This document shows positions 6,544 to 20,808 of a stretch of DNA of 38,797 bases, piece after piece. The stretch is from the NCBI GenBank assembly GCA_017445015.1, contig JAFSVL010000020.1, positions 1-38,797 of the forward strand, given 5' to 3'. Positions within the stretch are counted from its first letter, which is position 1; the number at the start of each line of letters is the position of its first letter. Under the pieces are notes generated by a model. That model was not told the origin of the DNA and did no database searches. It was given only the letters and a program-made list of their open reading frames with translations. The position numbers and the translations under genes are program-made. Source of the DNA: Bacteroidales bacterium. GTDB taxonomy: Bacteria; Bacteroidota; Bacteroidia; Bacteroidales; UBA932.

Positions 6544-8259
6544 ATCGTCCAGCCACATGCGGCTTTCGGATGAGCCGGTGAACCAGTCGCCCAGACGGCT
6601 CGATGCCGCGGATATGATGATATGGGTGGGCAGCCGGAAGTTGTCGCGGTAGGCCAGCGGGAATTCCACTTCTTCCCAGCCGACCGTCGAACGGTCCAGC
6701 AGGCAGGAGCCATAGGCGATGACGGCGGGGGCATCGGGATTGAAGAACGTACTCTTGTCCGAGGTGTTCACGCAGACGGGGCTTTCCGCAATGCCGCCGT
6801 AAACGCGGTAATCCCAGTCTCCCAGCGCCACGAAAATCTGTCCGTTGTCCGGCGTTCCCGGACGGATGGGGTCGCCCTCCGGCGCTCCGCCGAAGCAATC
6901 CACATTCCCGCACTGATACTTGATCCAGACGCGGACGGCACGCGGTCGGTCGGTAAACGGCCGGCCGAAATTGACCGTGGCGCCGGTCGTGCCCTGCAAC
7001 TGTCCGAAACTGCCGCTGAAGATATTGCCCGCCGCAAATTTTACGATGACGTAGCGGGACACGAGTTTGGCGCTCGCCTTGCCTTCCTTGAAATCCTCGG
7101 TATCCGGCAGGCTGATGACATTCGCGGCACCGGCCATCGTAGATCCGATATTGCCGCTGTCCCACCATTTGGACGCTCCGGCGCCGTACCAGGAAATATA
7201 ATTCTGCGATTCCGCATTAGAATATTCTTCGAAGCCCGCATTGGGCAGCTGCGTCTCGGCACCGGTCGTGAATTCCTGAATGCCGGTTTCCTCCTCTTCG
7301 CTGTAGGCGAGACATTCATAGCGGCTCATCGGCTCCAGGCCCTCGATGCAGGCGACAAAACTGCCGCCGATACTTTCGATATTCTCCGCTTCCATCCACG
7401 TTTCCTCCCCGACGGCGCGATAGCGGAAGCCGTTATTGCGCTCCGCGGGTGCATCTGCGCGAAGGTAGCAGTTTCGGGCACGCGGGCTGACGGCGCTCAG
7501 TTCCACCGACATGTCGGACTGTTCCGCATAGACGGTCCATTCCTCGCGCACATCGCGCCAACTGACGACGATGGGTACGGCGTCGGTGAAATCCAGTATG
7601 GTGGACGGGGCGAGCGAATGCACCGAAATGTCGTGCGGCCCCAGTTTGAGCGATTTCACCGTGACGCGGTTCATCGGCGTCGATTTGGAAACTTTCAGAA
7701 AAATCCGGTGCGTCGCCGGGTCGATGACGGTTTCGCCGATCTGTCCCTGTACCGTAAACCAGCGTTCGATGCTTTGGACGGCCTGGATCTTCCAATGGTA
7801 GTCCTGATAGGTCGTCAATGTGAACGACAGGGGAGTGCGGAGGTCAAAACTGCCCTCCAGCGCTATGGACGGGCGGGTATTGGGGTAATTATAGGAAACC
7901 GAGCGGATCTTGACGGCGGACAGGTCGCAGACCTCGTCCATATCCAGCGTCACGGTGCACGCCTGCTCGTCGATGGAGACGCCTACCGCCCCGTCCGCCT
8001 GTACGGCGGTAATCGCCGCCCGCTGATAGGGCAGGGGAATGTCGTTCTTGATGCAGCCGGACAAAGGCAACATCAGCAGCATTGCAAAGACAATGGGAAT
8101 CAGGCAGTGTCCGGCTTTGATTGGATGAAAATTTACTGTGTCAGCTTGAAGACCGTCGGCACCCTCGCGACGTAAGAGGGAGGGGCCCATCGCCTGCGAT
8201 GGGAGGGATAGCCCCGAAGGGGCGTAGTCTGAAAGCTGATTCAGGAAATTTTCAATCAT
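6526..8259 (-). CDS. PCMD-domain surface lipoprotein (start uncertain)
   Basis: The last gene of the minus-strand surface operon. The C-terminal half (from about LPNAGFEEY to WLDDLRLVY) is a PCMD domain (putative carbohydrate metabolism domain), a jelly-roll-like module of Bacteroidetes surface proteins. The N-terminal half holds Ig-like beta segments. It resembles the gene at 9731-11530 closely (both have VKFAAGN, VNFGRPFT and RVW.KY), so the two are paralogues in one operon. The lipoprotein signal (IPIVFAMLLMLPLSGC) lies about 50-65 residues inside the frame because a structured element at 8126-8254 supplies both possible ATG starts (8259 and 8190). No ordinary start gives a normal signal peptide. 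The gene may have lost its own start or use a rare one. Ligand unknown. Confidence 0.75.
   Translation of the reverse strand: MIENFLNQLSDYAPSGLSLPSQAMGPSLLRREGADGLQADTVNFHPIKAGHCLIPIVFAMLLMLPLSGCIKNDIPLPYQRAAITAVQADGAVGVSIDEQACTVTLDMDEVCDLSAVKIRSVSYNYPNTRPSIALEGSFDLRTPLSFTLTTYQDYHWKIQAVQSIERWFTVQGQIGETVIDPATHRIFLKVSKSTPMNRVTVKSLKLGPHDISVHSLAPSTILDFTDAVPIVVSWRDVREEWTVYAEQSDMSVELSAVSPRARNCYLRADAPAERNNGFRYRAVGEETWMEAENIESIGGSFVACIEGLEPMSRYECLAYSEEEETGIQEFTTGAETQLPNAGFEEYSNAESQNYISWYGAGASKWWDSGNIGSTMAGAANVISLPDTEDFKEGKASAKLVSRYVIVKFAAGNIFSGSFGQLQGTTGATVNFGRPFTDRPRAVRVWIKYQCGNVDCFGGAPEGDPIRPGTPDNGQIFVALGDWDYRVYGGIAESPVCVNTSDKSTFFNPDAPAVIAYGSCLLDRSTVGWEEVEFPLAYRDNFRLPTHIIISAASSRLGDWFTGSSESRMWLDDLRLVY
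8126..8254 (+). repeat. cloverleaf-like structured element, copy A
   Basis: 129 bases. Outer arms 8126-8153 and 8227-8254 pair at 23 of 28 positions. Inside are the conserved ACCCTCG (8161-8167), the G-rich linker GAGGGAGGGG (8176-8185), hairpin CCCATCGC-CT-GCGATGGG (8186-8203), GGGAGGG, and hairpin GCCCC-GAA-GGGGC (8211-8223). Copies B and C have the same order, spacing and conserved bases but different paired stems. The right arm contains the ATG that opens the reading frame of the downstream PCMD lipoprotein. Arms are less perfect than in B and C, so this may be the oldest copy. Confidence 0.8.
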
Positions 8260-8266
8260 AGACGGA

Positions 8267-8974
8267 CTACAGATAATAGGTCAAACCAAAGTTAATGTCG
8301 GTCAGCGACGGTTTTATATTGGCCTTGAAGGTATCGCTCTTGCCGCTCAGGACCCCATTCTCGTAATTCCGTGCAAAATTATAGCCGATTTTGGCCAGCC
8401 CGAGTTCGAGATGCAGCGACAGCCGGTTCATGACGAAAACCTCGAATCCGGGACTGAATACCAGCGCGATGCTGCGCAGGTCATTGTTGTTCGGGGCCGC
8501 GGCGATGCGTGCGTTGGAGTAGGAAAGGGCGACATCGCCGTAAATGGCGCAGATGCCCTTGCGGTCGATACCGAAGTAACTGCGGTGGAAAAGTGCGCCG
8601 CCGAAATGGTTCAGGACGCCGCCCGCATCGCTGATGCTCAGATCGAGCCCCTCCATGGGAATGGAGACGGACGCCTGCTGCAAGTGCATTTCGGCCCAGG
8701 TATAGGAAAAGCGGATGCCCAGCATCTGATTGCGGTGATAGCACCAGCTGAATACGGGCGCGATGCGCATGAAACTGACTTTCCCGCTGATGCCGGTCAG
8801 CAGCTGGAACACCTGGCTGTCCGAAGAACTCATATTAAAGTAGGTGCCCTGGATGCCCAGTCCGAGACTGTTCTTCTCCATAAACGGCTTGCGGGTACGA
8901 GTGCTGTCCGTGTCGGCTGCGCGAAGCCCTGCGCAGCAGAGCAGCAGGAGGGTAAGTGTGAACAACTTTTTCAT
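8267..8974 (-). CDS. small outer-membrane beta-barrel protein
   Basis: 235 aa with a signal peptide (MKKLFTLTLLLLCCAGLRA). The rest alternates hydrophobic and polar residues in repeated short strands, with many aromatic residues at strand ends and a final LTYYL, as expected for an outer-membrane beta-barrel of roughly 8-12 strands. The start overlaps the stop of the preceding barrel gene (ATGA). It appears distantly related to that neighbour, in a similar order of strands (GI, IAPVFSW, GIRFSY, YGDVALSY, HLELGLAKIGY). Probably an accessory barrel for assembly, export or anchoring of the surface lipoproteins encoded around it. The function is not known. Confidence 0.75.
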   Translation of the reverse strand: MKKLFTLTLLLLCCAGLRAADTDSTRTRKPFMEKNSLGLGIQGTYFNMSSSDSQVFQLLTGISGKVSFMRIAPVFSWCYHRNQMLGIRFSYTWAEMHLQQASVSIPMEGLDLSISDAGGVLNHFGGALFHRSYFGIDRKGICAIYGDVALSYSNARIAAAPNNNDLRSIALVFSPGFEVFVMNRLSLHLELGLAKIGYNFARNYENGVLSGKSDTFKANIKPSLTDINFGLTYYL

Positions 8975-9738
8975 CGCCGGCCGTTGTTGATGTAATACGA
9001 AAGGCCCACCGAAAGTTGCAGCAGGTCCACCATGAAATTGGCGGCCATTCCGCTGCTCCCGCCGCCCTGGACCTGGTTGTGTACCTGGTCGGAACGGGTG
9101 TAGCCGAATTCCAGCAGCCCGACGCGCAGATCCAGGGCCAGATGCTTCGTGATGTAGGCCATCACGCCGGTATTCACGCCGATGGTGGCGCTGAAGCCGG
9201 TGTCGAAACTTCCGCGCACATCTTCGCTGCGGGCATCCTGCACCTTGGTCTGGCTGCCGCCGACGGCTACTTCCGCATCGGCGAAGGCGGCGAAGCGTCC
9301 GCTGCGTCCCAGAGGCCGGTAATAGCGGAAGAATGCGGCGCCCAGATACTTCTGGCGGAGATAGGTGTAATTCTTCACGTCCAGCGAAATCTCACCGAAT
9401 CCGGCGGATGCGCTGTCCAGGCCCAGGTAGCCGCGCGAATACTTTGCGCGGAGGCCGATGCCCAGATTGTCCGCGAACATCCAGCAGACCTGCGGGCTGA
9501 CGTTGACGGCATGGGAGCGGGAGGTAATCCCGGAAACCACCATGAACTTGTAATTGTCCTGGGCGGAGGAAGTTACACCGAAGTTTCCGCCGATCATCCA
9601 ACTGCCCTTGGGGGCGATGATGGCCATCGGTCGGCTCTCGTCATACCCCCGGTCATACACCGGCCGCTGCGCCGCCGCCTTGCCTCCCAACACCAGGAAT
9701 AGTGCGATTATCAGCAGGGGAAGGCGGGACCTATTCAT
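8971..9738 (-). CDS. outer-membrane beta-barrel protein
   Basis: 255 aa. The frame extends upstream, but the ATG at 9738 is followed at once by a clear signal peptide (MNRSRLPLLIIALFLVLGGKAAAQ) and overlaps the previous stop by 8 bases, so this start is chosen. The mature part shows short amphipathic strands (GNFGV, WMFADNLGIGLRAKYSRG, LGAAFFRYY, FAAFADAEVAVG, LALDLRVGLLEFGYT) and ends in LSVGLSYYI, typical of an outer-membrane barrel. It forms a pair with the next gene. The pair lies between two PCMD lipoprotein genes in the same operon, which suggests that barrels and lipoproteins act together at the cell surface. Confidence 0.77.
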   Translation of the reverse strand: MNRSRLPLLIIALFLVLGGKAAAQRPVYDRGYDESRPMAIIAPKGSWMIGGNFGVTSSAQDNYKFMVVSGITSRSHAVNVSPQVCWMFADNLGIGLRAKYSRGYLGLDSASAGFGEISLDVKNYTYLRQKYLGAAFFRYYRPLGRSGRFAAFADAEVAVGGSQTKVQDARSEDVRGSFDTGFSATIGVNTGVMAYITKHLALDLRVGLLEFGYTRSDQVHNQVQGGGSSGMAANFMVDLLQLSVGLSYYINNGRR

Positions 9739-11530
9739 AGACGAACTCCATTTTGTCAATCCAGAGCTTCGCGCTGTCGCACCCCGTAAAGTAGTCACCG
9801 TACATCGACGAAGCGCAGGAAATGATAATGAACTGCGGTTTGGTGATGACGTCCTTCCAGTCGATGGGAATCGTGTACTGCTTCCAGCTGTTGTGCGAAT
9901 TGCTTGCATTGCCCGTCAGCACCAGTTCACCATAGGCGAGCGTGGACGGGTCCGTATTGTAATTGACAAAAGTGGAGGTATTGGTCGTATTGACCTGGAC
10001 GGGGGAGTCCTTGGTGCCGCCGTAGTTCTTCGGCGTCCAGACCCCGAGTGCGATCTGCACGCGGGCGCGGTCATAGTCATTGGTGGTCAGATGCTCTCCG
10101 GCGGGCTGCGTGTCTATGCGGTTGATTTTTCCGGTGGAATACTTGAGCCAGACGCGCAGGGCGGTAGGACGGGCGGTAAAAGGCCGTCCGAAATTGACGA
10201 TACCGCCCTTGGTTCCGACAAGTCCGCCGAAGGAGCCCGTAAAGAGGTTGCCGGCGGCAAACTTCACCACGGCCCAGGTGGACTGGAGCCGGGCGGACTG
10301 GTTGCCGTCGATCTTTTCGGAGGTATCCACGGCGGTAATGACATAGCCCATGTCTGCGGAACCGTCCACGCCGGTGGCACCGTTGCCGGATCCCCACCAG
10401 GGAGTGTGGCAGAGCGGATCGGACGCATTGGGATTATAGAACTCGGAGTACTTGCCGCTGGCCGATGTGGAGGTGTATTCAAAACTTCCGTTGGGGACCT
10501 CGGGCGCATCCTCGGTGGTAAACTCCATCGGGTCACCCTGCACCTCGCCGCCGGCCACGAGCCGGTAACTGTAATGCGTAGAGGGGGCAAGCCCCGTGAG
10601 GACCGCATCATAGGTCCCTTCGGACACCCGGTTGGCCGCTTTGCTCTGCCATGTGGTCCCGTCGGTACTGTACTCGAAGAAGATGGTGGAAGGATCATTG
10701 AACTCGCCCTCATCTACATCCGCGTGTACGGTGGCGTGGGCAGCCCAGATTTCATAATCGGCCGATGCGACGAGTCCCGTCGATACCGGCTCGAAGATAA
10801 TGATATCGTCGATGGGCTTGAGTTCCGTATCTACATAGATATTGAAGTCCACGTCGCCTTCGCGCACGGTGTACTTGATGGTCAGTTCATAGGCTTTTCC
10901 GGGCTCGATGCCGGAGATGACGCCTTCCTTGACTACGGGAGCGCCGGTCTTGGCCTTTTCGCCCTCGAAACGCCAGGTGAAGGACGGTTCGTCCAGGTCG
11001 CTGACGATGAAATAGCCCGGCGTCCCTTCATTCTCCGCGGTATAGGTCAGCGTATGGTCCGCATCGGGTCCGATGCTGAGCGAATAGCCTGCCTTGAGGT
11101 TGGCGGGAACGTTGTTTTTGAAAATGACCTTCGTTACGGCGCAGTTCACACCCGCTTCGACGACGACATGCGTATCCTTGCCGCCGCTGATTTCAAAGGT
11201 CTGCGAGCCCTTGTAACTGATTTGCTCGAAATTGGCCCGGCGCGGTGCATCGAGCGCCGCTTCACCGGCGAGGACATCCACACGGTAGCTGTTGGCGGGA
11301 AGGAAGATCTTCTCGGGCATGGCGCCATAGCGGTATTCCTTCACCAGGCCGGAATAATCGGCGTAGTAGATACGTACCAGCGCCGACGAAAGCAGTTCCG
11401 TATCGCTCATCGCCGCCTTGGAGCCGCCTTCGAATTGCACGCCGACATACAGGAAACCCGGTTCCTGCTCTACGGTTTTGCAGCCGGCAGCGAGCAATGC
11501 TGCAAAGAGTATGATGGCAAATCTTTTCAT
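9731..11530 (-). CDS. DUF4493 + PCMD surface lipoprotein
   Basis: 599 aa with lipoprotein signal MKRFAIILFAALLAAGC (lipid-bearing Cys17). Domains in order: DUF4493 beta-sandwich (about 25-250, with the IFLPANSYRVDVLAGE motif), a fibronectin III-like segment (about 255-355, ending GLAPSTHYSYRLVAGG), and a C-terminal PCMD domain (about 360-599, starting VPNGSFEYT and ending KLWIDKMEFVYE). It starts one base inside the stop of the upstream gene (TAATG). PCMD modules are expected to bind or process glycans at the cell surface, but no activity is proven. It is the closest relative of the last gene in this operon, at 6526-8259. Confidence 0.85.
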   Translation of the reverse strand: MKRFAIILFAALLAAGCKTVEQEPGFLYVGVQFEGGSKAAMSDTELLSSALVRIYYADYSGLVKEYRYGAMPEKIFLPANSYRVDVLAGEAALDAPRRANFEQISYKGSQTFEISGGKDTHVVVEAGVNCAVTKVIFKNNVPANLKAGYSLSIGPDADHTLTYTAENEGTPGYFIVSDLDEPSFTWRFEGEKAKTGAPVVKEGVISGIEPGKAYELTIKYTVREGDVDFNIYVDTELKPIDDIIIFEPVSTGLVASADYEIWAAHATVHADVDEGEFNDPSTIFFEYSTDGTTWQSKAANRVSEGTYDAVLTGLAPSTHYSYRLVAGGEVQGDPMEFTTEDAPEVPNGSFEYTSTSASGKYSEFYNPNASDPLCHTPWWGSGNGATGVDGSADMGYVITAVDTSEKIDGNQSARLQSTWAVVKFAAGNLFTGSFGGLVGTKGGIVNFGRPFTARPTALRVWLKYSTGKINRIDTQPAGEHLTTNDYDRARVQIALGVWTPKNYGGTKDSPVQVNTTNTSTFVNYNTDPSTLAYGELVLTGNASNSHNSWKQYTIPIDWKDVITKPQFIIISCASSMYGDYFTGCDSAKLWIDKMEFVYE

Positions 11531-12783
11531 TATTGTACAATCATTGTGACAGCCACCTCATTGCGGCAGTTGTTGTTATCCGTAACTTTCATGGTAAAGG
11601 TATGTGAGCCGGTAAAGCCGAGGATCGGGCTTTGTGCGGCACTCAGGTCCAGATGTACTTCCGTCGCGCCCAGCAGATCCGCCCCGTGCGGGAAGGGAAC
11701 GACCTGGAAGATGATTTCGGAATCGGGAGAGGGGTTCACGAGGTCCAGTTCCGGACCGCCGGCCGCCTCGACGGCGCCCAGGAACGAGGAGTTCGTGGAC
11801 TGGATGACCACGCCGAGTTTCTTGATGCCGCCCGGCGCCATGATGATGAGGCGCAGGTCCATGGCCCCCTGAGAGAGGGGCGGAACGACGATATTCGAAA
11901 AATCGCTGTACATCGTGCAGTCCGGCTCGAAGAGGAGGCGGATGTCGCCGTCGCCCTTGGGCGCGTCGGGATCTTCTCCGATGATATCCAGCTGGGGAGC
12001 CGCGATGTAGGCCTGCAGGTCTGCGTCTTCGATGTATCCGTTGACACTGATGTCGATGGTGGCGTCACCCTCGGCGTTCACCTTCTTGATGAACCGGATC
12101 TGCCGCAGTTCGCCGGCCTTGATGCCGCTGATGACCTTGGTCATCTTCTGGGTGCTGCCGTTGACTTTTCCGCTGAAGGAAACCACCATCGTCGTGGCAC
12201 CGCTCTGCAAGGAGAAGTAGCCGATGCGTTCCTCGCGGGCGATGTTTCCGCCATTGTAACTGAGGTTGTAGGTCAGGGGATAGCCGGAGGCAACCTCGAC
12301 GGTGGCTTTTCCGTCTCCGGTCATGATTTCCTTGAGGGCGTCGTCGTAATCGACGGTCGCCGCGCACTGGAGAATCTTGCAGGTGATTTCTCCCAGGTCG
12401 GTCTTTCCGCCCGCGACGATGCCGAATTCGTCCGTGGCCCCGTAAACGGGAGATTCGAATGCGGCGACTTGCAGGGTTCCGGAAATCACCTCCAGCGAGT
12501 AATTGCCCGCCGGGAGTTCGATGCCGTAACCGGATTCTTTCACTTCGGCATAGGTGACGCTTCTTACCACGTCGCCGTCGGCATTGTAAATGTTGATCCG
12601 GTAGTCCCCGGAAGCCTCGGTCACGCTTTTGGCGACGACTTCCACGTCCAGGGCGCTGCGGATGCTAAAGTGTTCGAAGGAAAGGATTCCGGTGGTGACG
12701 TTTTCGTGGCGCCGGAAATCTTCGTTGCAGGAAACGGCCATGCACAGGGCCGCGGCTGCGAGTATCATGCGTGTCGTTTTCAT
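11530..12783 (-). CDS. DUF4493 surface lipoprotein
   Basis: 417 aa; signal MKTTRMILAAAALCMAVSC with Cys19 as lipidation site. The DUF4493 part covers about residues 30-270 and has the family pattern of a strand, ELPAGNYSLEVISG, then AAFESPVYG and a charged turn. The C-terminal ~150 residues (from PQLDIIGEDPDAPKG) form another beta-rich module ending in TFTMKVTDNNNCRNEVAVTMIVQ, a PKD/Ig-like ending. It is coupled to both neighbours by one-base overlaps. Likely a surface-exposed structural or adhesive protein; ligand unknown. Confidence 0.82.
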   Translation of the reverse strand: MKTTRMILAAAALCMAVSCNEDFRRHENVTTGILSFEHFSIRSALDVEVVAKSVTEASGDYRINIYNADGDVVRSVTYAEVKESGYGIELPAGNYSLEVISGTLQVAAFESPVYGATDEFGIVAGGKTDLGEITCKILQCAATVDYDDALKEIMTGDGKATVEVASGYPLTYNLSYNGGNIAREERIGYFSLQSGATTMVVSFSGKVNGSTQKMTKVISGIKAGELRQIRFIKKVNAEGDATIDISVNGYIEDADLQAYIAAPQLDIIGEDPDAPKGDGDIRLLFEPDCTMYSDFSNIVVPPLSQGAMDLRLIIMAPGGIKKLGVVIQSTNSSFLGAVEAAGGPELDLVNPSPDSEIIFQVVPFPHGADLLGATEVHLDLSAAQSPILGFTGSHTFTMKVTDNNNCRNEVAVTMIVQ

Positions 12784-13493: not shown

Positions 13494-15313
13494 GGTTCTA
13501 TCGTTACTTTAATATTGTCGAGATACAGCCAGCAGGTGGTGTTGGTGGTGCCGGCCTGGTGTTCTATTTCCGTCCGCCAGGAAATCCGGATCAGGGAGCC
13601 TGCGGGAACGTTGGAAAGGGTGTAATCCGTGTCGTTGGGCGTATTGTCCCAGCTTCCGGTATATTCCTTGGCGTAGAACGTGTTGTTCGTGCGGTCATAA
13701 ACGCCGTCCGTGTCCCCGCTCTTGTAGCCTTTGGTGCTGGTGACATAGCCGATGTAACAGTTCTGGCCGACGTTCCCGTCCAGGATGATGGGAATGCCTC
13801 CGAAGCGGTTGTTGGAACCATAACTGAATTCCACCTTGAGATTGCAGCTCTTCTTGATGGTTCCGGTCAGCGGGGCGGACTCCACGCGGGCGGGGTAGTC
13901 CGCGGAAGTCTCCCTGCGGCAGGCGATGCGGATGCACTTGCCCGCCGATGCGCCGATACGTCCTCCGGTCCAGCCGCCCAGGAAACTGTAGGCATCCTTG
14001 CTGCCGGCCGCCGAGGTCTTGTATTCATCATTCGAGGAGAAACTGCCTACGGTTGAGAAATCCTCGTCCAGCAGCGGCGGTACGTCCAGGTTGAGCGTGG
14101 TGGAATATTTGCCGCTCAGGTTCGGGATGTTTACCGTCTGTGCGGTCTGGACGTGCTCGGAGTCGAAGGTGATGCTGATGCTCTTGCCGCTCAGGGTGCG
14201 GAAGTTGCTTTCTTCTTCGTATTCCAGTTCCAGCACGGAGCCTGCGGGGATGTCCTTTCCCGAGTACCAGGTATAGACATTTCCTAAGTTGTCTCCCCAT
14301 TTGCAGCCGGAGGGAGCGGTGAGCGTGATGCTCTTCAGCTCTTCTCCCAACGGGTTGGAAGCCAGGTTGACATAGACTTTGCATCGGTTGACCAGGGCGT
14401 CCGGGGTAATCTGTACTGCGGTGGTATGGCCGGCCTGCATGTCGCGCCCGCCCAGCGGAATGTTCTTCAGGACGGCGATTTTGGTCTCCGTGTAGAGTTT
14501 TCCGCTGATTTCGTCCAGCTTGCTCCACTTGCGCGGGAAAATCGTGGCCATCGCATAACGGCGCCCGCCGGTGCCGGTCTTGGCAAGGGGGGAGGCGAGA
14601 TCCATCGTCAGGTAGTAACTGCCGTCCTGCAGCGTTCCTGCCTCATCCGGTAAGCTGAGGTCTTTCTCAAAGGTCCCGGTGACCGTCTGGGGGAAGAAGA
14701 GTTTGATGCGCTGCACGGTCTCTCCGTCCAGGAGGTCGGAGGGATCATGGATCCAGAATTTCAGCAGATGGAGCTGCTGCTCAAGGCGCAGCTTGACAAG
14801 GCCGTTTTCCGGACTTTCGTCAATGCTGCGGAGTGCGATTCCTTCTACCGGGGCGGCAATCATGATGCCTTGTCCCGTTCCATCCTGGATTTCGGGAAGG
14901 GTAAAGGAGGCCGAGGGCCACCGGCTGATTGCCGGCAGGGGAGAGGCCGCGGTGTAACTGTAGTAGGGGGCGTGCATCGGCTCGTCCAGTTCTGCTGTGA
15001 AGAGGGCGCGGTTGCCGCTCACGCCGTAAATCCGGAAGGGGACGGCGTCCAGTTCCAGTTCGTTCAGCGGGTTGACGGCCCAGAGGGCCAGCAGGTCGTC
15101 GTCGGACCACCAGACGCTTTTGCCGTCGCCGCCGATGAGGGTTTTGCTTTCCGCAATAGAAACATCATCCCCCGCGCCGGTGGCACAGAGGATGACATTG
15201 CGTTTGCCGTTGATGGCGGCGTTATTGTTGTTTTCGCCGGGCAATCCCGCGGGCTCCGTCCTTGTGCAGGACAGGGCCAGGATACCTGCCAGAATGACCG
15301 GAAGCACCTTCAC
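13490..15313 (-). CDS. fimbrillin-like lipoprotein with C-terminal jelly-roll module
   Basis: About 607 aa from the GTG at 15313, which gives a textbook lipoprotein signal (MKVLPVILAGILALSC, Cys16). The frame stays open upstream to an ATG at 15409, but those 32 codons are structured element B and would bury the signal, so the GTG is preferred. The N-terminal ~300 residues look fimbrillin-like (VWWSDDDLLALWA, YYSYTAASPLP, LHLLKFWIHDP). The middle is Ig-like and the C-terminal ~190 residues (LLDEDFSTVGSF to YLDNIKVTIEP) resemble a carbohydrate-binding jelly roll. The start codon and first codons lie inside a perfect 28-base helix arm of element B, so translation may be restrained by RNA structure. 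Confidence 0.78.
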   Translation of the reverse strand: MKVLPVILAGILALSCTRTEPAGLPGENNNNAAINGKRNVILCATGAGDDVSIAESKTLIGGDGKSVWWSDDDLLALWAVNPLNELELDAVPFRIYGVSGNRALFTAELDEPMHAPYYSYTAASPLPAISRWPSASFTLPEIQDGTGQGIMIAAPVEGIALRSIDESPENGLVKLRLEQQLHLLKFWIHDPSDLLDGETVQRIKLFFPQTVTGTFEKDLSLPDEAGTLQDGSYYLTMDLASPLAKTGTGGRRYAMATIFPRKWSKLDEISGKLYTETKIAVLKNIPLGGRDMQAGHTTAVQITPDALVNRCKVYVNLASNPLGEELKSITLTAPSGCKWGDNLGNVYTWYSGKDIPAGSVLELEYEEESNFRTLSGKSISITFDSEHVQTAQTVNIPNLSGKYSTTLNLDVPPLLDEDFSTVGSFSSNDEYKTSAAGSKDAYSFLGGWTGGRIGASAGKCIRIACRRETSADYPARVESAPLTGTIKKSCNLKVEFSYGSNNRFGGIPIILDGNVGQNCYIGYVTSTKGYKSGDTDGVYDRTNNTFYAKEYTGSWDNTPNDTDYTLSNVPAGSLIRISWRTEIEHQAGTTNTTCWLYLDNIKVTIEP

Positions 15314-15413
15314 CGCCCATGCCACCCTCGGCAATGTAAGCGGGAGGGGCCCAAAGCGGGCTTTGGGAGGGGTCGCGCATGCGACGGCGGTGAAGGTGCT
15401 TCCGGTCATTCTG
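15290..15413 (+). repeat. cloverleaf-like structured element, copy B (perfect 28-bp arms)
   Basis: 124 bases. Arms 15290-15317 and 15386-15413 are perfect inverted copies of 28 bases. Inside are ACCCTCG (15324-15330), linker CGGGAGGGG (15341-15349), hairpin CCCAAAGC-GG-GCTTTGGG (15350-15367), AGGG, and hairpin GTCGC-GCAT-GCGAC (15372-15385). The arms have the same length and related sequence to those of copy C, with changes on both sides that keep pairing. The left arm is also the first codons of the lipoprotein gene starting at 15313, so the right arm is an inverted copy of that gene start. Confidence 0.88.
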
Positions 15414-15467
15414 TTGTTGGAGTGGCGGGGTGTTTCAGAAATAGGGGTAAGTTAATTTCCTAATATG

Positions 15468-17363
15468 CTAATTGTAAACCGCATTTATATTGTAAATAGT
15501 AGCGTTTGGACCTGTTGCTCCTGCATAGGCTTTTATTTGTATTTTGTCACCGTTATTGATTGTCCCGGTCTTAGAAGTTGATTTATATACTGTTTTAGCC
15601 TTAATTAAGGAGGCTTCGCTATCTTGTCTAGCGCAAGTAATTGAACCTAAACTTACCGTGATTTGTATTTGTGCAAGCGAGGATTTAGCATATAATCTCA
15701 TATCAGCAGAGATCTTTCCTCCAATTCCTTCCGGACAATAAAAGCCTGTTTTTGTAGTTGCGAATGCGTTCAGCCCGGTAGATCTCATGTAAACCCCGTC
15801 ATTGTCAAATCTCACTTCACCGGTACCATTATCCTTAGTATCCCACATCGTGCTGGTTGGTACGGGGCAATAGAAAGGCAACCCGGTGACGTGCAGGTCG
15901 CGGCTGGCGTTGTTGATCACACCGTCGAAGGTGCAGCTGGCGCTGAGCGTGTGCTTGGCCCAGCTCTGGCCGGACTTGTTGGCAATGGAAGCGGAGTTGC
16001 CGGAAACGGAGACCGCGGCTCCGCCGTCGTAGCTGTATGAATACGACTTGCTGTATTTGCTGTCGTTCATCAGGTCCGCCGCGATGGTGACGCTGGTGCC
16101 CAGGCCGTAGATGCTGCTTCCGTCCAGCCCGTTGGCCGTAGATACATTCTTCGTGTATCCGTCGGCGCCCACGCCGTAATTATAAGAGGTATAGCCGCTG
16201 ACGCTTACGGAGAAGGCCGGGTTGACATTGTGGTTGACGGTGACGGGGGCGAGCGTCTTGCTGCGGCCGTCCTTCGTGGTGTAGGTCGCGCTCAGCGTGT
16301 AGTTCCCCTTCGGGAGGTACACATAACCGCCCGCGACGGAGCCCGTCCCGCTGTTGGAAGTGTAGTTGCGTACGGTCACATTGTCGCTGTTCTTCAAGGT
16401 GGCTGTCCAGCTGTCAATCATCCCCGCGAGTTCATCCGCGACGGGAATGCTCAGCGTGGCGGTGGAGCCGGTAAGGGTGCCGGAAGAGTAGGTGTGCGCA
16501 ATCGTTACGGTAGGGGTGACGTCCAGTTTCAGCCCCAGGGTGCCGATGTGATAGATCGCGCCCTGTGCGCCGGGGACAGTCTTGCTGCTGCTGGCGCTGT
16601 AGGTGGCGCCGCCCGCTGCGGTGACGGTAAAGGTGAATCCGCCGGCGTATTCCTTGGGCGCAATGACCGCGAAGTATTTCGCTCCTGCGGCAAGGGGCCC
16701 GTTCAGCGTGACGGAGGAACTACCGCTGACGGAATTGAGGCTGCCGTCCGCCGCGTTGAAAGAGATGCTGCCCGCGAGGTCGGTGCCGCTGTTGGCGGTG
16801 ATGGTAACGCTCTGGGCGCCCTCCACGTAGGAGGGCATGTTGAAGGAAATCAGCGTGCAGAGATTCTCGAATTCGAGTCCGTCGGCGCTTTCCTGCCCGG
16901 GGGTGCGGGTTCCTTTGGCAAGGCTGATGGCGGTCTTGTCCGCGAAACTGCCGGCAACCGCGCTCTGGCTGGCGCTTAGGGTGGTGCTGAGCACGCCGCC
17001 GCTCAGGGATGCTCCGCTATTGTAGGGATAGAGGGCCCAGTAAGCCGTGGCTTTGTCGTTTACCTCCCCAGTGAGGGAAATCCTGGTGGCGTCGGAAAGG
17101 ACGCTGCCGGTAAAGAGATGTCCGGCCGCGCCGGCGTTGTCGAAGACGGCCGCGTTGTCGCCCGCCGTCCAGTTCACGGCGGAACCGCTGAGGTCGGCAA
17201 GGGCGGTCTTGGAGCCTTCGTCTTCCGGCGTTGCGACGGGGAAAGCCGCGTCATTTATAGTAAAGGGAACGAGACCTTCGTGGCTCCCGATGGTTTCAAT
17301 CTGGGTCTGATTGCAGGCGGCTACGAGAAGAATTGCAGCCGGAATAAACATTGACTTTTTCAT
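15468..17363 (-). CDS. fimbrillin-like lipoprotein, first large gene of the operon
   Basis: 631 aa from the ATG at 17363; signal MKKSMFIPAAILLVAAC with Cys17. An earlier in-frame ATG at 17390 would overlap the small ORF and spoil the signal. The N-terminal ~280 residues are fimbrillin-like (VNWTAGDNAAVFDNAG, AYWALYPYN, LCTLISFNMPSY, YFAVIAPKEY). Repeated DUF4493/Ig-like segments follow (YLPKGNYTLSATY). The last ~130 residues (after VTGLPFYCPVP) form a separate module, and the DNA that codes for it is markedly AT-rich (about 37% GC in a 60-base count at 15481, against about 62% at 16201), so this end may be a recent domain replacement. The ATG is only 4 bases after the stop of the upstream small ORF, which implies translational coupling. 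Confidence 0.82.
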   Translation of the reverse strand: MKKSMFIPAAILLVAACNQTQIETIGSHEGLVPFTINDAAFPVATPEDEGSKTALADLSGSAVNWTAGDNAAVFDNAGAAGHLFTGSVLSDATRISLTGEVNDKATAYWALYPYNSGASLSGGVLSTTLSASQSAVAGSFADKTAISLAKGTRTPGQESADGLEFENLCTLISFNMPSYVEGAQSVTITANSGTDLAGSISFNAADGSLNSVSGSSSVTLNGPLAAGAKYFAVIAPKEYAGGFTFTVTAAGGATYSASSSKTVPGAQGAIYHIGTLGLKLDVTPTVTIAHTYSSGTLTGSTATLSIPVADELAGMIDSWTATLKNSDNVTVRNYTSNSGTGSVAGGYVYLPKGNYTLSATYTTKDGRSKTLAPVTVNHNVNPAFSVSVSGYTSYNYGVGADGYTKNVSTANGLDGSSIYGLGTSVTIAADLMNDSKYSKSYSYSYDGGAAVSVSGNSASIANKSGQSWAKHTLSASCTFDGVINNASRDLHVTGLPFYCPVPTSTMWDTKDNGTGEVRFDNDGVYMRSTGLNAFATTKTGFYCPEGIGGKISADMRLYAKSSLAQIQITVSLGSITCARQDSEASLIKAKTVYKSTSKTGTINNGDKIQIKAYAGATGPNATIYNINAVYN

Positions 17364-17367
17364 AAGG

Positions 17368-17514
17368 CTAGTACAATTCATCGTATTCATCCTCGTAATA
17401 ATCGTAACCGGTGGACTGGAACCCGTTCTGGGAGAACGGGCTGGCGCAGAAAATGGGGACCTGCTTCAGGATGTGCAGATCGCTCTCTGGTGCTGTGTAG
17501 TAATTTTTTTTCAT
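17368..17514 (-). CDS. 48-aa leader-like small ORF 1
   Basis: A short frame beginning MKKNYYTAPESDLHILKQ and ending in an acidic, tyrosine-rich tail (YDYYEDEYDELY). It is the first frame after the promoter at 17547-17576 and stops four bases before the next lipoprotein ATG. It aligns without gaps to small ORF 2 (25699-25854) over 23 residues, sharing N, Y, P, L and an ASP tripeptide, so it is a real coding unit. It has no signal peptide. An 8-bp perfect hairpin (17422-17429 with 17433-17440, loop GGG) lies in the codons right after ASP. Possible roles are a regulatory leader peptide, a co-translational partner or a modified peptide. The function is unknown. Confidence 0.75.
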   Translation of the reverse strand: MKKNYYTAPESDLHILKQVPIFCASPFSQNGFQSTGYDYYEDEYDELY

Positions 17515-17517
17515 AAT

Positions 17518-17547
17518 GCTGCCGTTTCTCGGCTTTAAAACGGCAGC
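17518..17547 (-). promoter_or_regulatory. inverted repeat at the transcription start of the surface operon
   Basis: Perfect 10-base arms (GCTGCCGTTT and AAACGGCAGC, 17518-17527 and 17538-17547) around a 10-base spacer. It begins at the edge of the -7 box and ends four bases before the small ORF 1 ATG, so it spans the expected transcription start. It could be a repressor operator or a 5'-end mRNA hairpin. Confidence 0.65.
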
Positions 17548-17576
17548 AAAGATAAACCTATATGTTTTATAGACAA
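17547..17576 (-). promoter_or_regulatory. Bacteroidetes-type promoter of the surface-protein operon
   Basis: Read on the minus strand: a TTG (-33) at 17576-17574, a 19-base AT-rich spacer, then TATCTTTG at 17554-17547, an exact match to the TAnnTTTG -7 consensus. It lies in the 146-base gap between the threonine aldolase stop and small ORF 1, which otherwise shows no gene. It should drive small ORF 1 and the following ~11 kb. Confidence 0.7.
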
Positions 17577-17660
17577 GGGGGCTGGTGGAGATATGAGACG
17601 ATTAGCTTTCTGTTGTTTCTTTTCTCGGCTTCAACGGGCTTGTGTATATCCACAAACTGG

Positions 17661-18686
17661 CTATAACAGGGATTCCAGTTCCCGTATCTGCTCCGGCGTG
17701 GTGGCCCAGCTTGTTGCAAAACGGGTGACGGCGCGGCCGTCGGGAAGGGATTCCCAGACTTCGAAAAGGACTTTTCCTTCAAGTGCCTTCATTTGTGTTT
17801 CCGTCAGGATGGGAAACTGCTGGTTGGTGGGGGAGTCCGTATAGAAGGGATAGCCTTTGTCGGCAAACGCTTTCTTGAGGCGAAGGGCCATTTCAATGGC
17901 GTGCCGGCTGATTTCCATGTAGAGGTCCCCGGTGAAGAGCGTGTCGAACTGGATGCCGGTAAGGCGGCCTTTGGCCATCAGTGCGCCGTGCTGCTTGACG
18001 ATGGTGAAAAAGTGTTCCGGGGCGTTTCCCCGGGGAAACACGACCGCCTCTCCGCACAGGGCGCCCACCTTTGTCCCGCCGATGTAGAAGACATCGCAAA
18101 GCCGTGCAAGTTCCGGGAGCGTCACATCCGCAGCCGGGCTGGCCAGTCCGTAGCCCAGTCGCGCTCCGTCTATGAAAAGGGGCATCCCATACCGTTCACA
18201 GATACTTTTCAGGGCCTTGAGTTCTTCCCCGGCGTATAGCGTTCCGTACTCGGTGGGGAAGGAAATATACACCATGCGGGGAAGGGCCATGTGGGGCCAG
18301 GAAGGGGCGGCGTAGAACTTTTCCAGATAGGCCTTGAGTTCTTCGGGCGCCATTTTCCCCCTGTGGGAGGGCAGGGTGACGACCTTGTGGCCGCTGAACT
18401 CTATGGCCCCGGACTCGTGTACGGCGATATGGCCGGTCTGCGCCGCAATCACGGCGCCGTAGTGGGGGAGAAGGGCGTCGATGACGGTGGCGTTGGTCTG
18501 TGTCCCGCCGCACAGGAGCATCACGCCGGCCTTGGGGCAGCCCGTCGCCTCGCGAATTTTTGCGGTTGCGCTCCGGGTAAAGCGGTCGTCCCCATAGCCG
18601 GGCTCCTGCTGCAGGTTGGTCTCCTGCAGGCGCTTCAGGATAAGGGGATGTGCACCCTCGCTATAGTCGCAGGTAAATGAGATCAA
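17661..18686 (-). CDS. low-specificity L-threonine aldolase / beta-eliminating lyase family
   Basis: 341 aa, a PLP fold-type I enzyme. The cofactor lysine is Lys206 in GGTKVGA. Asp173 in FIDGARLG should hold the pyridine nitrogen and His90 in HIAVHESGA stacks on the ring. The GGTQTNATVI block at 60-69 matches the phosphate-binding turn. The family cleaves L-threonine or allo-threonine to glycine and acetaldehyde in the cytoplasm. It lies 9 bases after argG, so it is probably cotranscribed with arginine biosynthesis, an uncommon pairing whose reason is not visible. Small family members with other amino-acid substrates exist, so the exact substrate is not certain. Confidence 0.85.
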   Translation of the reverse strand: MISFTCDYSEGAHPLILKRLQETNLQQEPGYGDDRFTRSATAKIREATGCPKAGVMLLCGGTQTNATVIDALLPHYGAVIAAQTGHIAVHESGAIEFSGHKVVTLPSHRGKMAPEELKAYLEKFYAAPSWPHMALPRMVYISFPTEYGTLYAGEELKALKSICERYGMPLFIDGARLGYGLASPAADVTLPELARLCDVFYIGGTKVGALCGEAVVFPRGNAPEHFFTIVKQHGALMAKGRLTGIQFDTLFTGDLYMEISRHAIEMALRLKKAFADKGYPFYTDSPTNQQFPILTETQMKALEGKVLFEVWESLPDGRAVTRFATSWATTPEQIRELESLL

Positions 18687-18695
18687 GGCTGGAAG

Positions 18696-19901
18696 CTACA
18701 GGTCGAGTTCTTCCGGATGGTGGCCGTAATAGACGCGCAGCGCGGTGGAACTGACTTTGATGAAGCCTTTTGCATCATCTGCGGTCCAGCCTTTCTGCGT
18801 CTCGCCATATTCGCCGAGTTTGCTCTTGACGAGGTCGGCGGGGGAGTCCACGCCCACGGTCTCGAAGCCGTAACGGCGGAGCTTGAGCGTGACCGTGCCG
18901 CTGACATTGCGCTGGCTGCTTTCGAGCATCGCTTCGATGTCGCGCATCACCGGCTCCAGGTACTGGCTTTCGTGCAGGAACATCCCGTACCAGGTACCCA
19001 CCTGGTCTTTCCAGTACTGCTGCCATTTGGAGAGCGTGAATTTCTCCAGGAACTTGTGTGCTCCGATAATCAGCATGGGAGCGGCGGCTTCGAAGCCTAC
19101 GCGCCCCTTGATGCCGATGATGGTATCGCCGACATGCATGTCACGGCCGATGCCGTATGCGCTGCCGATCCGCTCGATTTCGCGGATTGCTTCCACTTTA
19201 TCGGCATAGGTCTTGCCGTTGACGCTGGCGATTTCGCCTTTCTCGAAGCCCAGGCTCAGCGTCTGCTCGCCGTCTTTGACCGCCTGCTTCAGGTAGGCGC
19301 TTTCCGGCAGCCCCTGCGTCGAGTCCAGTATCTCTCCGCCGCAGATGGAAGTCCCCCAGAGCCCGACGTTATAGGAATATTTGAGTTTGGTGAAATCCGC
19401 CTTGAACCCGTGCGCGTTGAGGTAATCCACCTCTTCCTTGCGGGACAGGTTGCCGTCGCGCGTGAGGGTGATGATTTCCATGCCGGGGCACATCACGAGG
19501 AAGGTCATGTCGAAGCGGACCTGGTCGTTGCCCGCGCCGGTGGAGCCGTGGGCGATGGCGTCCGCACCGATCTCGTTGGCGTAGCGGGCAATCGCCATTC
19601 CCTGGAAGATGCGCTCGGACGAAACGGAGATGGGATAGGTGCCGTTCCTGAGCACATTGCCGAAGACCATGTACCTCAGGCTCTTGTCGTAGTATTCCCG
19701 GGTGACGTCAAGGGTGACATATTTCGTCGCGCCCAGTTTGTAGGCGTTCTCCTCGTTGGTGCGGAGCTGCTCCTCGCTGAATCCGCCGGTATTGGCGCAG
19801 GCCGCGTGTACCTCGTATCCTCTTTCCCTTGCGAGGTACATCACGGTGTAAGAGGTGTCCAGTCCGCCGCTGAACGCGACCACAACTTTCTTTTTTGCCA
19901 T
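18696..19901 (-). CDS. argG: argininosuccinate synthase
   Basis: 401 aa from the ATG at 19901 (MAKKKVVVAFSGGLDTS), the normal length for Bacteroidetes ArgG. An upstream in-frame extension is ignored because the ATP pyrophosphatase loop SGGLDTS must sit near the N-terminus (residues 11-17). Other family blocks are GSTGAGNDQVRFD, SYNVGLWGTSICGGEI and GRVGFEAAAP. It joins citrulline and aspartate using ATP in arginine synthesis. It follows the GNAT gene by 7 bases and is followed by threonine aldolase. No argC or argD is next to it, so the remaining arginine genes must be elsewhere. Confidence 0.95.
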   Translation of the reverse strand: MAKKKVVVAFSGGLDTSYTVMYLARERGYEVHAACANTGGFSEEQLRTNEENAYKLGATKYVTLDVTREYYDKSLRYMVFGNVLRNGTYPISVSSERIFQGMAIARYANEIGADAIAHGSTGAGNDQVRFDMTFLVMCPGMEIITLTRDGNLSRKEEVDYLNAHGFKADFTKLKYSYNVGLWGTSICGGEILDSTQGLPESAYLKQAVKDGEQTLSLGFEKGEIASVNGKTYADKVEAIREIERIGSAYGIGRDMHVGDTIIGIKGRVGFEAAAPMLIIGAHKFLEKFTLSKWQQYWKDQVGTWYGMFLHESQYLEPVMRDIEAMLESSQRNVSGTVTLKLRRYGFETVGVDSPADLVKSKLGEYGETQKGWTADDAKGFIKVSSTALRVYYGHHPEELDL

Positions 19902-19908
19902 ATCTTTT

Positions 19909-20475
19909 TCAGTTTTGTTCGGAGGGACTCTTGATTTCCAGATGCTCTTTGGGGTCATAGAGCAGGCCGGTGCAGATGCACATCTTGTAGTCATGGCTCT
20001 TGAGGATGTCGAAATGCCTGCATCCTTCGCACCCCTTCCAGAATTCCGGATCGTCGGTGAGTTCGGTGTAGGGAACCGGACGGAAGCCGAATTCGTAATT
20101 CATCTTCATTACCGCGGCTCCGGTAGTGATCGAAAAAATCTTGGCTTCGGGAAACAGGCGCCGGGACAGCAGGAAGGTCTGCTCCTTGATTTTCTTTGCG
20201 ATGCCCATCCCGCGGAATTTATGCGCCACAATGAGGCCGGAGTTGGCTACAAAGGTCTTGTGTCCCCAAGATTCGATATAGGAAAACCCGGCAAATTCCC
20301 CTTCGTCAGTCAGGGCGATGACGGCTTTTCCCGCGTCGATTTTCTCGATGATATACTCCGGCGTGCGCTTGGCGATGCCGGTCTTGCGCTCCAGCGAGGA
20401 GATGTAAATCTCTTCACAAATCTGTTCAGCGTATTTCCCGTGTTCGGGACGGGCTACGTAAACTTTGATTTCCAT
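19909..20475 (-). CDS. GNAT acyltransferase of the arginine operon
   Basis: 188 aa. A GNAT fold with the acyl-CoA pyrophosphate loop HKFRGMGIAKK at about residues 109-119 and the paired strands AGFSYIESWG and ANSGLIVAHKF. A cysteine pair in GCEGCRHFD near the C-terminus is typical of this subgroup. In Bacteroides a similar GNAT gene precedes argG, and these bacteria use N-succinylated intermediates for arginine synthesis. This protein is therefore a candidate for the first acylation of glutamate. That is inference from gene order, and a different amine substrate is possible. Confidence 0.78.
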   Translation of the reverse strand: MEIKVYVARPEHGKYAEQICEEIYISSLERKTGIAKRTPEYIIEKIDAGKAVIALTDEGEFAGFSYIESWGHKTFVANSGLIVAHKFRGMGIAKKIKEQTFLLSRRLFPEAKIFSITTGAAVMKMNYEFGFRPVPYTELTDDPEFWKGCEGCRHFDILKSHDYKMCICTGLLYDPKEHLEIKSPSEQN

Positions 20476-20503
20476 GACAGACTTCCAACTAACAAAAATC
20501 TGC

Positions 20504-20534
20504 GCAATTTACATCTTTTTGCCAAATAATACAA
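20504..20534 (-). promoter_or_regulatory. putative promoter of the GNAT-argG operon
   Basis: On the minus strand, TTG at 20534-20532, a 20-base spacer, and TAAATTGC at 20511-20504, which matches TAnnTTTG imperfectly. It is 29 bases upstream of the GNAT ATG. Spacing is right but the -7 box is imperfect. Confidence 0.45.
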
Positions 20535-20584
20535 TTTTGATGCACAAAGGCCGAGGGGTACCGCTCTGCATCAGATTTCAGGCT

Positions 20585-20656
20585 TTTTGTACGAAGTCAG
20601 GGCCCCCGGGGCCCTGTCGCCGAACAAATTTGACGATTTTGTACGAAGTCAGGGCC
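20585..20656 (-). repeat. direct-inverted-direct 20-base repeat cluster upstream of the arginine operon
   Basis: The 20-base unit starting TTTTGTACGAAGTC and ending AGGGCC occurs exactly at 20585-20604 and 20637-20656. Between them lies a degenerate inverted copy (CCCTGTCGCCGAACAAA), and the first unit ends in a near-perfect palindrome around CAGGGCCCCCGGGGCCCTG (20599-20617). The cluster is about 50-120 bases upstream of the putative promoter and next to element C. An operator for a dimeric regulator, or the remains of repeated hairpin insertion, both fit. Confidence 0.7.
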
Positions 20657-20670
20657 TTTTTAGCAATAAT

Positions 20671-20800
20671 AAAAAATTACCTGCTGCACTTTTATCGCCT
20701 GTGCCACCCTCGGTGGCTATGAGAGGGAGGGGCCCAAAACTTGTTTTGGGAGGGGTCGCCCACAGGGCGACGGCAGGAAAAGTGCAGCAGGTAATTTTTT
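20671..20800 (+). repeat. cloverleaf-like structured element, copy C
   Basis: 130 bases in the 333-base gap between the nuclease stop and the GNAT gene. Perfect 23-base arms lie at 20671-20693 and 20778-20800. Inside are hairpin GCCACC-CTC-GGTGGC (20703-20717), linker GAGGGAGGGG (20723-20732), hairpin CCCAAAAC-TT-GTTTTGGG (20733-20750), AGGG, and hairpin GTCGCCC-ACA-GGGCGAC (20755-20771). Here the arms end in runs of A and T, so the element may also end transcription of the nuclease operon. Confidence 0.88.
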
Positions 20801-20808
20801 AAATTATA

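Follow-up and report, generated by a model that had tools for sequence, protein, structure and literature searches.

We analysed a window of 38,797 nucleotides (positions 1 to 38,797 of contig JAFSVL010000020.1, assembly GCA_017445015.1) from a Bacteroidales bacterium, whose genome we call the host genome. An earlier note on this window had described three copies of a cloverleaf-like element, here A, B and C, and the coordinates, lengths, order of parts and hairpins that it gave were all reproduced from the sequence. The copies belong to a family that we consider probably to be a non-autonomous mobile palindromic element of about 130 bp, working like the Rickettsia palindromic elements (RPEs). 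Their parts are given below, with P1 and P2 as the two helices of a pseudoknot and E values for matches to R1, a covariance model of the family.

8126..8254, plus strand: copy A, whole hairpin, subfamily 3, with arms at 8126-8153 and 8227-8254 (R1 match 8142-8239, E 1.7e-28).
8162..8180, plus strand: copy A, pseudoknot, whose P2 pairs CCCTC (8162-8166) with GAGGG (8176-8180), from the sequence and family covariation.
8159-8160 with 8167-8168 and 8155-8157 with 8169-8171, plus strand: copy A, P1, with pairs that flank and cross P2.
8186..8203, plus strand: copy A, hairpin 2, CCCATCGC/GCGATGGG, from the sequence and covariation.
8210..8223, plus strand: copy A, hairpin 3, from the sequence and covariation.
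15290..15413, plus strand: copy B, whole hairpin, with perfect 28-bp arms at 15290-15317 and 15386-15413 (R1 match 15305-15398, E 5.1e-25).
15320-15323 with 15330-15333, plus strand: copy B, P1 of the pseudoknot (15320..15344), TGCC with GGCA, from the sequence and covariation.
15325-15329 with 15340-15344, plus strand: copy B, P2, CCCTC with GCGGG, one mismatch.
15350..15367, plus strand: copy B, hairpin 2, CCCAAAGC/GCTTTGGG, from the sequence and covariation.
15373..15384, plus strand: copy B, hairpin 3, from the sequence and covariation.
20670..20801, plus strand: copy C, whole hairpin, subfamily 1, with arms at 20670-20693 and 20778-20801 (R1 match 20687-20784, E 8.7e-32).
20702-20705 with 20712-20715, plus strand: copy C, P1 of the pseudoknot (20702..20727), with two G-U pairs and GCCACC/GGTGGC as an alternative.
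20707-20711 with 20723-20727, plus strand: copy C, P2, CCCTC with GAGGG, from the sequence and covariation.
20733..20750, plus strand: copy C, hairpin 2, CCCAAAAC/GTTTTGGG, from the sequence and covariation.
20756..20770, plus strand: copy C, hairpin 3, from the sequence and covariation.

Folded as RNA, the copies did better than any of 200 shuffles on both strands, with z values on the minus strand of -6.1 for A, -10.3 for B and -9.7 for C, and on the plus strand, in the same order, of -6.1, -8.9 and -7.1. A pattern of the core, allowed up to 3 mismatches, recovered B and C in the window, where 100 shuffles gave an expectation of 0; the pattern was one N too long, which gave three mismatches in each of B and C, while A, with four, was missed. 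Copies A and B lie at the start of, or just upstream of, minus-strand genes, of which the one at A has a PCMD domain in Pfam and the one at B has no Pfam match. Copy C is intergenic; on one side lies a DNA/RNA endonuclease gene and on the other an open reading frame (ORF) that matches GNAT weakly. Read by eye on the minus strand, the left arm of B seems to code for the N-terminus of a lipoprotein signal peptide (M-K-V-L-P-V-I-L-A-G-I-L-A-L-S-C). By eye, too, subfamily 1 arms read inward (for example in the L034:1501 region) resemble MKK-type signal-peptide starts, and one subfamily 1 copy has a 45-codon ORF that spans the whole hairpin.

The unit consists of arms of about 25 bp that enclose an H-type pseudoknot (P1/P2), AGGGG, hairpin 2, AGGG(A/G) and hairpin 3. 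P1 encloses a loop and varies among copies (TGCC/GGCA, CTGCG/CGCAG, GTGGCC/GGCCAC, AAGC/GCTT), P2 pairs the loop CCCNN with a downstream NNGGG (CCCTC/GAGGG, CCCAC/GTGGG, CCCGT/ACGGG, CCCGC/GCGGG), and hairpin 2 takes the form CCC...GGG. ACCCTCG and the GGGAGGGG linker, which the earlier note had listed as a motif and a linker, are present as sequence but are not plain single strands: CCCTC is the loop of a short hairpin that pairs with the start of the "linker" (GAGGG or GCGGG). Likewise, the hairpins of the cloverleaf hold, but the core is also pseudoknotted, and a cloverleaf alone does not describe it.

To the claim that the central and other hairpins covary we can add counts, in which kinship is controlled by sliding the pairing partner alone. 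Among 18 host copies (alignment A3), 93.9% of cells were paired, compared to 79.4% when shuffled and 38-54% when slid; covariation over the four helices was 0.357, compared to 0.102 shuffled and at most 0.066 slid, and both sides had changed at 10 of 23 pairs. Covariation is far above shuffles, contrary to one of the outcomes that the earlier note had said would refute it. R1 was built from these 18 copies with P2, hairpin 2 and hairpin 3 only; P1 was left out of this search model. In an alignment of 90 further matches from genomes G023, G063 and G097 (A5), 96.3% of 320 P1 cells were paired (59.2% shuffled, 15-42% slid), with covariation of 0.675 (0.134 shuffled, at most 0.171 slid). Two of the five P1 measures, the pairs with both-side changes and the further pair types, were not above shuffles; both are cruder measures and, as P1 has four pairs, near saturation. 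The helices in R1 were 89.2% paired in A5, with covariation of 0.298, and hairpin 3 was the weakest at 69.9%. The pseudoknot gives a signal of constraint separate from the covariation of the arms, which is discussed below.

On the GGGAGGGG strand, G.T mismatches outnumbered A.C mismatches in the arms (98 vs 42) and in the core (47 vs 18), with nominal p values of 2e-6 and 4e-4 that are inflated by relatedness. This hints that the GGGAGGGG strand is the folding strand, either as RNA or as single-stranded DNA. A quadruplex might form as well, from the conserved GGGAGGGG and GGGAGGG tracts; it would preclude P2 and the pairs at the base of hairpin 2. A pistol-like ribozyme, suggested by the topology, had no match in Rfam. 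Two copies (L210:9714 and L218:9323) are longer versions with a similar extra 50 or so bases in the pseudoknot region, and the host frame at L210 is open.

The earlier note had named a lack of further copies in the genome as a refutation, but a pattern scan of the host genome with up to 2 mismatches gave 32 matches, some of them shifted duplicates or chance, compared to 5 for the reversed pattern. At E up to 0.01, R1 matched the host genome 28 times, and searches of other Bacteroidales traced the family well beyond the window. In the genus, which is probably Candidatus Cryptobacteroides (family UBA932 in GTDB), 22 of 25 sampled genomes were positive, the host included, with 1 to 39 copies each, while R1 matched nothing in genus genomes G002, G010 and G018; none of 16 genomes from other families of the order was positive. 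Across the bacterial family, R1 had matches in 38 of 119 genomes and in 9 of 25 genera. Across the order, at least 6 of 295 genomes were positive, a lower bound given that few candidates were scored per genome; four lie outside the family, one of them by a single weak match. Copy numbers reached 36 in G023, 46 in G063 and 35 in G016, which is 98% complete. A collection scan with GAGGGAGGGGCCC-n-GGGAGGG returned, among the matches listed, metagenome-assembled genomes (MAGs) of Bacteroidales, including Candidatus Coprenecus, as well as Alphaproteobacteria. Within Rfam and, among the papers listed, open-access text on the motifs, on palindromic or intergenic repeats of Bacteroidetes and Bacteroidales and on hairpins in Cryptobacteroides, we found no described repeat that matches the element.

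After 13 of 147 measured copies were dropped for want of flank or neighbours, a simple ORF caller placed the other 134 as 56 in ORFs, 45 between tandem, 17 between convergent and 16 between divergent ORFs; in the in-ORF figure, some ORFs are spurious ones of the kind that a GC-rich genome yields, and orthologs each count as one copy. The single orientation antisense to genes seen in the window does not extend to the family, since the 45 tandem intergenic copies comprise 18 sense and 27 antisense. This bears on whether the family is a structured RNA, cis-regulatory or small, that is selected for its fold and whose spread in the genome is secondary. The fold and the covariation of the pseudoknot and hairpins speak for an RNA, as does the excess of G.T over A.C mismatches, which would be expected if the GGGAGGGG strand folds as RNA. 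However, many copies lie in ORFs, in both orientations, cores are inverted between close species, and no Rfam family reached its gathering score in the window, with scans of A and C singly falling far below the cut-offs. Since a cis-acting RNA needs a fixed orientation, the mixed orientation towards genes makes this unlikely as the main function, and we regard the structured RNA, which the earlier note had kept as a candidate, as an unlikely account of the family as a whole. Placement also bears on whether these are bidirectional terminators, or other hairpins that arose in place by mutation and do not move. Among neighbouring gene 3' ends, 53 of 79 fall within -15 to +40 bases of the hairpin, and subfamily 1 arms terminate in A/T runs. 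Nevertheless, genic copies, subfamilies with shared arms and empty sites that hold neither arm largely refute this account, which is the most improbable of those we weighed.

Evidence for mobility came from two close species, G023 and G063, which match at 94% over 2.1 kb at one site and at 85-95% over most aligned stretches. When empty and filled orthologous sites were compared, as the earlier note had proposed, the whole hairpin with both arms was present in one species and missing from the other at eight sites (L213:10020, L207, L209, L212, L192, L216, L225 and L217:18779). Of ten copies queried fully, seven had an empty site in the other species, one had arms only (L228, where G023 retains the arms alone at the site of the G063 copy), one was filled in both (L186) and one was partnerless (L201:6493). 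Among seven aligned candidate indels, L213:10020 was the sole clean absence of a whole unit, the rest being internal losses, partial or degenerate, or unclear (L215:2863, L218:997). The many copies, their presence or absence between neighbours and the lack of a coding gene inside fit the leading candidate of the earlier note, a non-autonomous hairpin-type mobile element moved by an enzyme elsewhere; overall, its interpretation is partly supported.

Shared sites differed in content as well. At 8 of 21 aligned shared sites the core was reversed while the flanks were kept (L188, L195, L196:5359, L198:6514, L198:9850, L199, L202 and L204:10075), and the coordinates of two more shared sites outside the alignment, at L200, suggest that one of them is reversed. 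At L199 the arms and flanks are nearly identical and the core alone is reversed; at L198:6514 and L196:5359 the arms are almost wholly different. Hairpin 2 was exchanged at some shared sites, and L185 is 57 bases shorter than L223 through internal loss. As far as sequence goes, the family is multi-copy, present or absent as a unit between close species, both intergenic and in frame within housekeeping genes whose reading frame is preserved, with a core that lies either way round and inner parts that are deleted or exchanged. A tie between core orientation and replication strand found no support (Fisher p 0.82), in a weak test with local skew near zero. Coreless hairpins occur in ORFs at L195 near 4275 (compare L240:4377) and at L189 near 3065 (compare L215:16607, with other arms), where the neighbour species has the element; they may be remnants or a second hairpin family. 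At L186:1100-3350, a few kb from an element copy, lies a degenerate tandem-repeat region with copies about 75-85% alike.

In the 147 measured copies, some of them decayed, the mean arm length is 24 bp and the inner part is mostly 60-100 bases. Arm positions 11-24 hold 0.02-0.17 bits (94 arms), that is, nearly no information past the tenth base, and within groups of G016 and G023 copies the cores are nearly identical while the arms are without recognisable kinship. Shared arms were found in nine host copies, which make up the subfamily of C (C included), and in about 10 G023/G063 copies, some of them orthologous. These subfamilies look like recent bursts, and they demonstrate that arms travel with the element. 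In the subfamily of C, the outer motifs TTAGAAACAATG and TTAAATACTTGTG occur on either side relative to the core, which was a first sign of core inversion. The G023/G063 subfamily, which has CGTAAGCACCCTCGCTTGTAGAGGG, comprises L193, L197:4673, L203:15719, L205, L214:4719, L219, L220 and L226, with some copies near contig ends and some as two neighbouring copies. Two origins for the arms were rejected. Copying from the target at insertion does not fit the eight empty sites, where neither whole arm is present, and copying from elsewhere in the genome gained no support when 49 arms were compared with about one-fifth of each genome (best non-self match 0.86, reversed control 0.82; the 10 perfect matches were the same places again or, for L223, its ortholog).

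The earlier note had read the covariation of the arms as selection on structure. In 18 orthologous pairs with 443 arm base pairs, 354 were unchanged, 44 had changed on one side, 38 had changed on both sides and were paired in both species, and 7 were other; three of 21 pairs were left out because their arms had diverged too far, and the limits of each arm were set by its own complementarity, a choice that favours paired sites. The 38 paired changes compare to about 3-4 if the two sides changed independently, as estimated from the same counts, and they occurred also in ORFs that keep their frame. The paired changes thus hold, but structure as their sole cause does not: both-side changes in excess, even in frame-keeping ORFs, together with core inversion, point to template switching as well as to structure selection. 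Template switching, which is known to yield paired changes of that sort (PMC8794818), probably helps keep the arms paired.

Insertion into genes was supported by the proteins involved. A Pfam domain was found in 16 of 20 scanned ORFs that hold a copy, and none in the other four. The domains comprised shikimate dehydrogenase and kinase, an RNA methyltransferase (which we take to be RsmE-type), an EamA transporter, a PP-loop ATPase (presumably TilS-type), Methyltrans_SAM, the PrmC N-terminal domain, SpoU methylase, UvrD helicase, two Methyltransf_4, riboflavin kinase/FAD synthetase, Radical SAM (in the host genome, L050), rRNA adenine dimethylase, a THUMP-like domain, helix-hairpin-helix and histidine phosphatase. 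Several Pfam matches were split, or overlong by about the length of the element: 222 residues against a profile of 182 for PP-loop, 338 against 300 for Radical_SAM_N and 180 against 131 for CTP_transf_like, with the RNA methyltransferase match broken into two stretches. Set against their protein families, these split and overlong domains polarise the direction as gain.

The G023 and G063 stretches hold 35 in-ORF copies, of which 27, at 17 sites, have an ORF in the other species that matches both sides of the insert and eight have no usable ortholog. ORFs were picked as open in the first species, so the second species is the test: at 14 of the 17 sites a single ORF ran without interruption in both species; the two versions differed by 0 to 53 residues, and in some the core was reversed. 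Among the aligned proteins, a methyltransferase had one 38-residue insert and part of another. A PrmC-like protein was 36 residues longer at a point where the other species carries its own short hairpin, and an RNA methyltransferase had the core at the same residues in both species but in opposite orientations, sense and antisense. Fifteen in-gene copies covered both orientations and, with phases counted roughly, about 5 of 6 combinations of orientation and phase. No family-wide peptide was found among these 15, and those that do recur, such as GPSRSRSHGRLR, are confined to one subfamily and frame. The idea of a subfamily adapted to genes through a larger number of open frames was unsupported (2.84 vs 2.49 open of six).

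These frames also bear on whether the element is removed or skipped in genes at the level of the transcript, in the manner of an intron or of translational bypass, with the protein not extended. Two features would suit such a process: a long closing stem that is perfect in many copies, and the presence of core enzymes among the hosts. However, the open frames at 14 of 17 sites, including those with inverted cores and indels, and the lengths kept in threes speak against removal at the RNA level, which needs neither, and we consider it very unlikely.

No mobility enzyme was found among those looked at (Y1_Tnp, DUF559 and RVT_1). A folded structure as the recognition signal and insertion that leaves no clear duplication are reminiscent of the mechanism of RAYTs, the Y1 tyrosine transposases (of the IS200 kind) that insert repetitive extragenic palindromes (REPs) as folded single-stranded DNA, and Y1_Tnp genes are present in 31 of 61 genus genomes. 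However, the linkage of copies to a REP-type or IS200-type transposase, for which the earlier note had proposed a search, was not found: none of 30 Y1 loci, searched about 1.5 kb around, held an element at E<0.01, with one weak match at E 0.03. In addition, neither the host genome nor the high-copy G016 had a Y1_Tnp match at E up to 1e-5, and known REPs are given as 20-40 bp (PMC3733652). A REP-type element moved by a RAYT is thus improbable. DUF559, suggested by alphaproteobacterial loci, was rejected as the gene occurs in only 1 of 61 genus genomes, and the RVT_1 reverse transcriptase, found in 7 of 22 genomes, some of them high-copy, was absent from the host genome, G016, G023 and G063.

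We return to a non-autonomous mobile palindromic element as the probable explanation. An enzyme would recognise the folded strand, through the pseudoknot and the conserved GGGAGGGG and GGGAGGG tracts, and insert the folded hairpin. Template switching in replication, inside the hairpin, would flip the core, delete or exchange inner hairpins and copy changes from arm to arm, so that the arms would drift fast and stay complementary. As with the RPEs, genic copies would persist only when their length and frame leave the protein readable. More tentatively, the family might be a new class of mobile element, whose signal is a pseudoknotted, G-tract folded strand instead of a terminal sequence, acted on by an enzyme through its fold, in which each copy has its own arms and the core is reversible in place, so that a site, even one in a housekeeping gene, could alternate between the sense and antisense forms of the element and hence between two unrelated peptide inserts.

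Several points weigh against this explanation. Beyond the missing enzyme, the arms are mostly own to the locus and without recognisable donor, and direct copy-and-insert is visible in the two shared-arm subfamilies only. No consistent target-site duplication was found at the eight empty sites, L207 alone having a possible AATC repeat, and the L192, L216 and L217 empty sites resemble a few outer bases of the arms. Seven of the empty sites are intergenic, and either insertion or precise loss would fit them. Arms that differ greatly at some inverted sites (L198:6514, L196:5359) make reinsertion possible there. Three of the 17 in-ORF sites were unclean: L197:16462 is open but runs off the stretch, and L214:4719 and L221, without a conserved long ORF, look like spurious ORFs. 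That in-gene copies are translated as an extra stretch of an active enzyme is inferred from open frames, in draft MAGs and with a simple ORF caller.

Compared by description, the closest known system is that of the RPEs, for which we know of no mobility enzyme. RPEs are palindromic repeats of about 150 bp, many of them in frame within unrelated metabolic genes, and are described as encoding a conserved peptide (PMC10969869). Our family is likewise palindromic, multi-copy and of that size class, and it appears in frame in unrelated protein-coding genes. Unlike RPEs, it has no conserved peptide, one site holding sense and antisense translations in two species, and it has a conserved pseudoknotted core that lies in both orientations at one site, in a different phylum. 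We do not class it as an RPE because the conserved-peptide feature is absent; the comparison was made with published descriptions of RPEs.

REPs of the GTAG and CGTC superfamilies are described as interspersed palindromes mostly downstream of genes and also within them, and Bacteroidetes is one of the phyla from which CGTC repeats, which seem to have no transposase dedicated to them, were reported (PMC3733652). The present family is also an interspersed palindromic repeat found inside genes. REPs carry a GTAG or CGTC foot, and in some of our subfamilies CGTC or CGTAG lies close to hairpins 1 and 3. The family differs in its length of about 130 bp, three hairpins, pseudoknot, long arms and lack of Y1 linkage. 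Terminal repeats of miniature inverted-repeat transposable elements (MITEs) are common to their copies. Our family is, like MITEs, a small non-autonomous inverted-repeat element, but its arms are usually unique to each locus, the two shared-arm subfamilies excepted, and we found no parental insertion sequence or consistent duplication. MITE-type repeats such as ERIC/RU, Correia, BrickBuilt of Porphyromonas and CIR of Caulobacter are described as small, inverted-repeat, non-autonomous and mostly intergenic (PMC10969869, PMC2759123, PMC4596501).

New relative to these systems are the pseudoknotted core, the two orientations at one site and the phylum. The best-known palindromic insertions in frame are those of Rickettsia, in which genetic work is difficult, and an apparently independent case is now seen in Bacteroidales known mostly from metagenomes. 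The host genus alone has more than 200 species, some pairs of species are close, and the presence, orientation and content of sites vary between them. This brings three questions within reach of tests: which agent moves the elements, for how long a perfect hairpin lasts, and whether the inserted segments are of use to proteins. Furthermore, hairpin covariation, which is usually read as selection on RNA, can accrue beside inversion and probable template switching.

The alphaproteobacterial repeat returned by the collection scan has the form CCCTCTCCC-n-GGGAGAGGGAGGGGCCC-hairpin-GGGAGGGTGAGGG and reaches R1 scores of up to 42 bits. It has the same GAGGGAGGGGCCC-hairpin-GGGAGGG centre as the element, but its first hairpin is a plain stem without a pseudoknot, and long locus-specific arms are lacking in the loci read. 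As selection of these loci relied on the shared motif, the likeness is biased upwards, and it may be convergent. The repeat occurs as inverted pairs; in L319:2937-3362 (Sphingopyxis) and L326:3831-4259 (Sphingomonas), such a pair flanks a stretch with an ORF that is DUF559-like by eye, and at L319 this ORF extends into the repeat.

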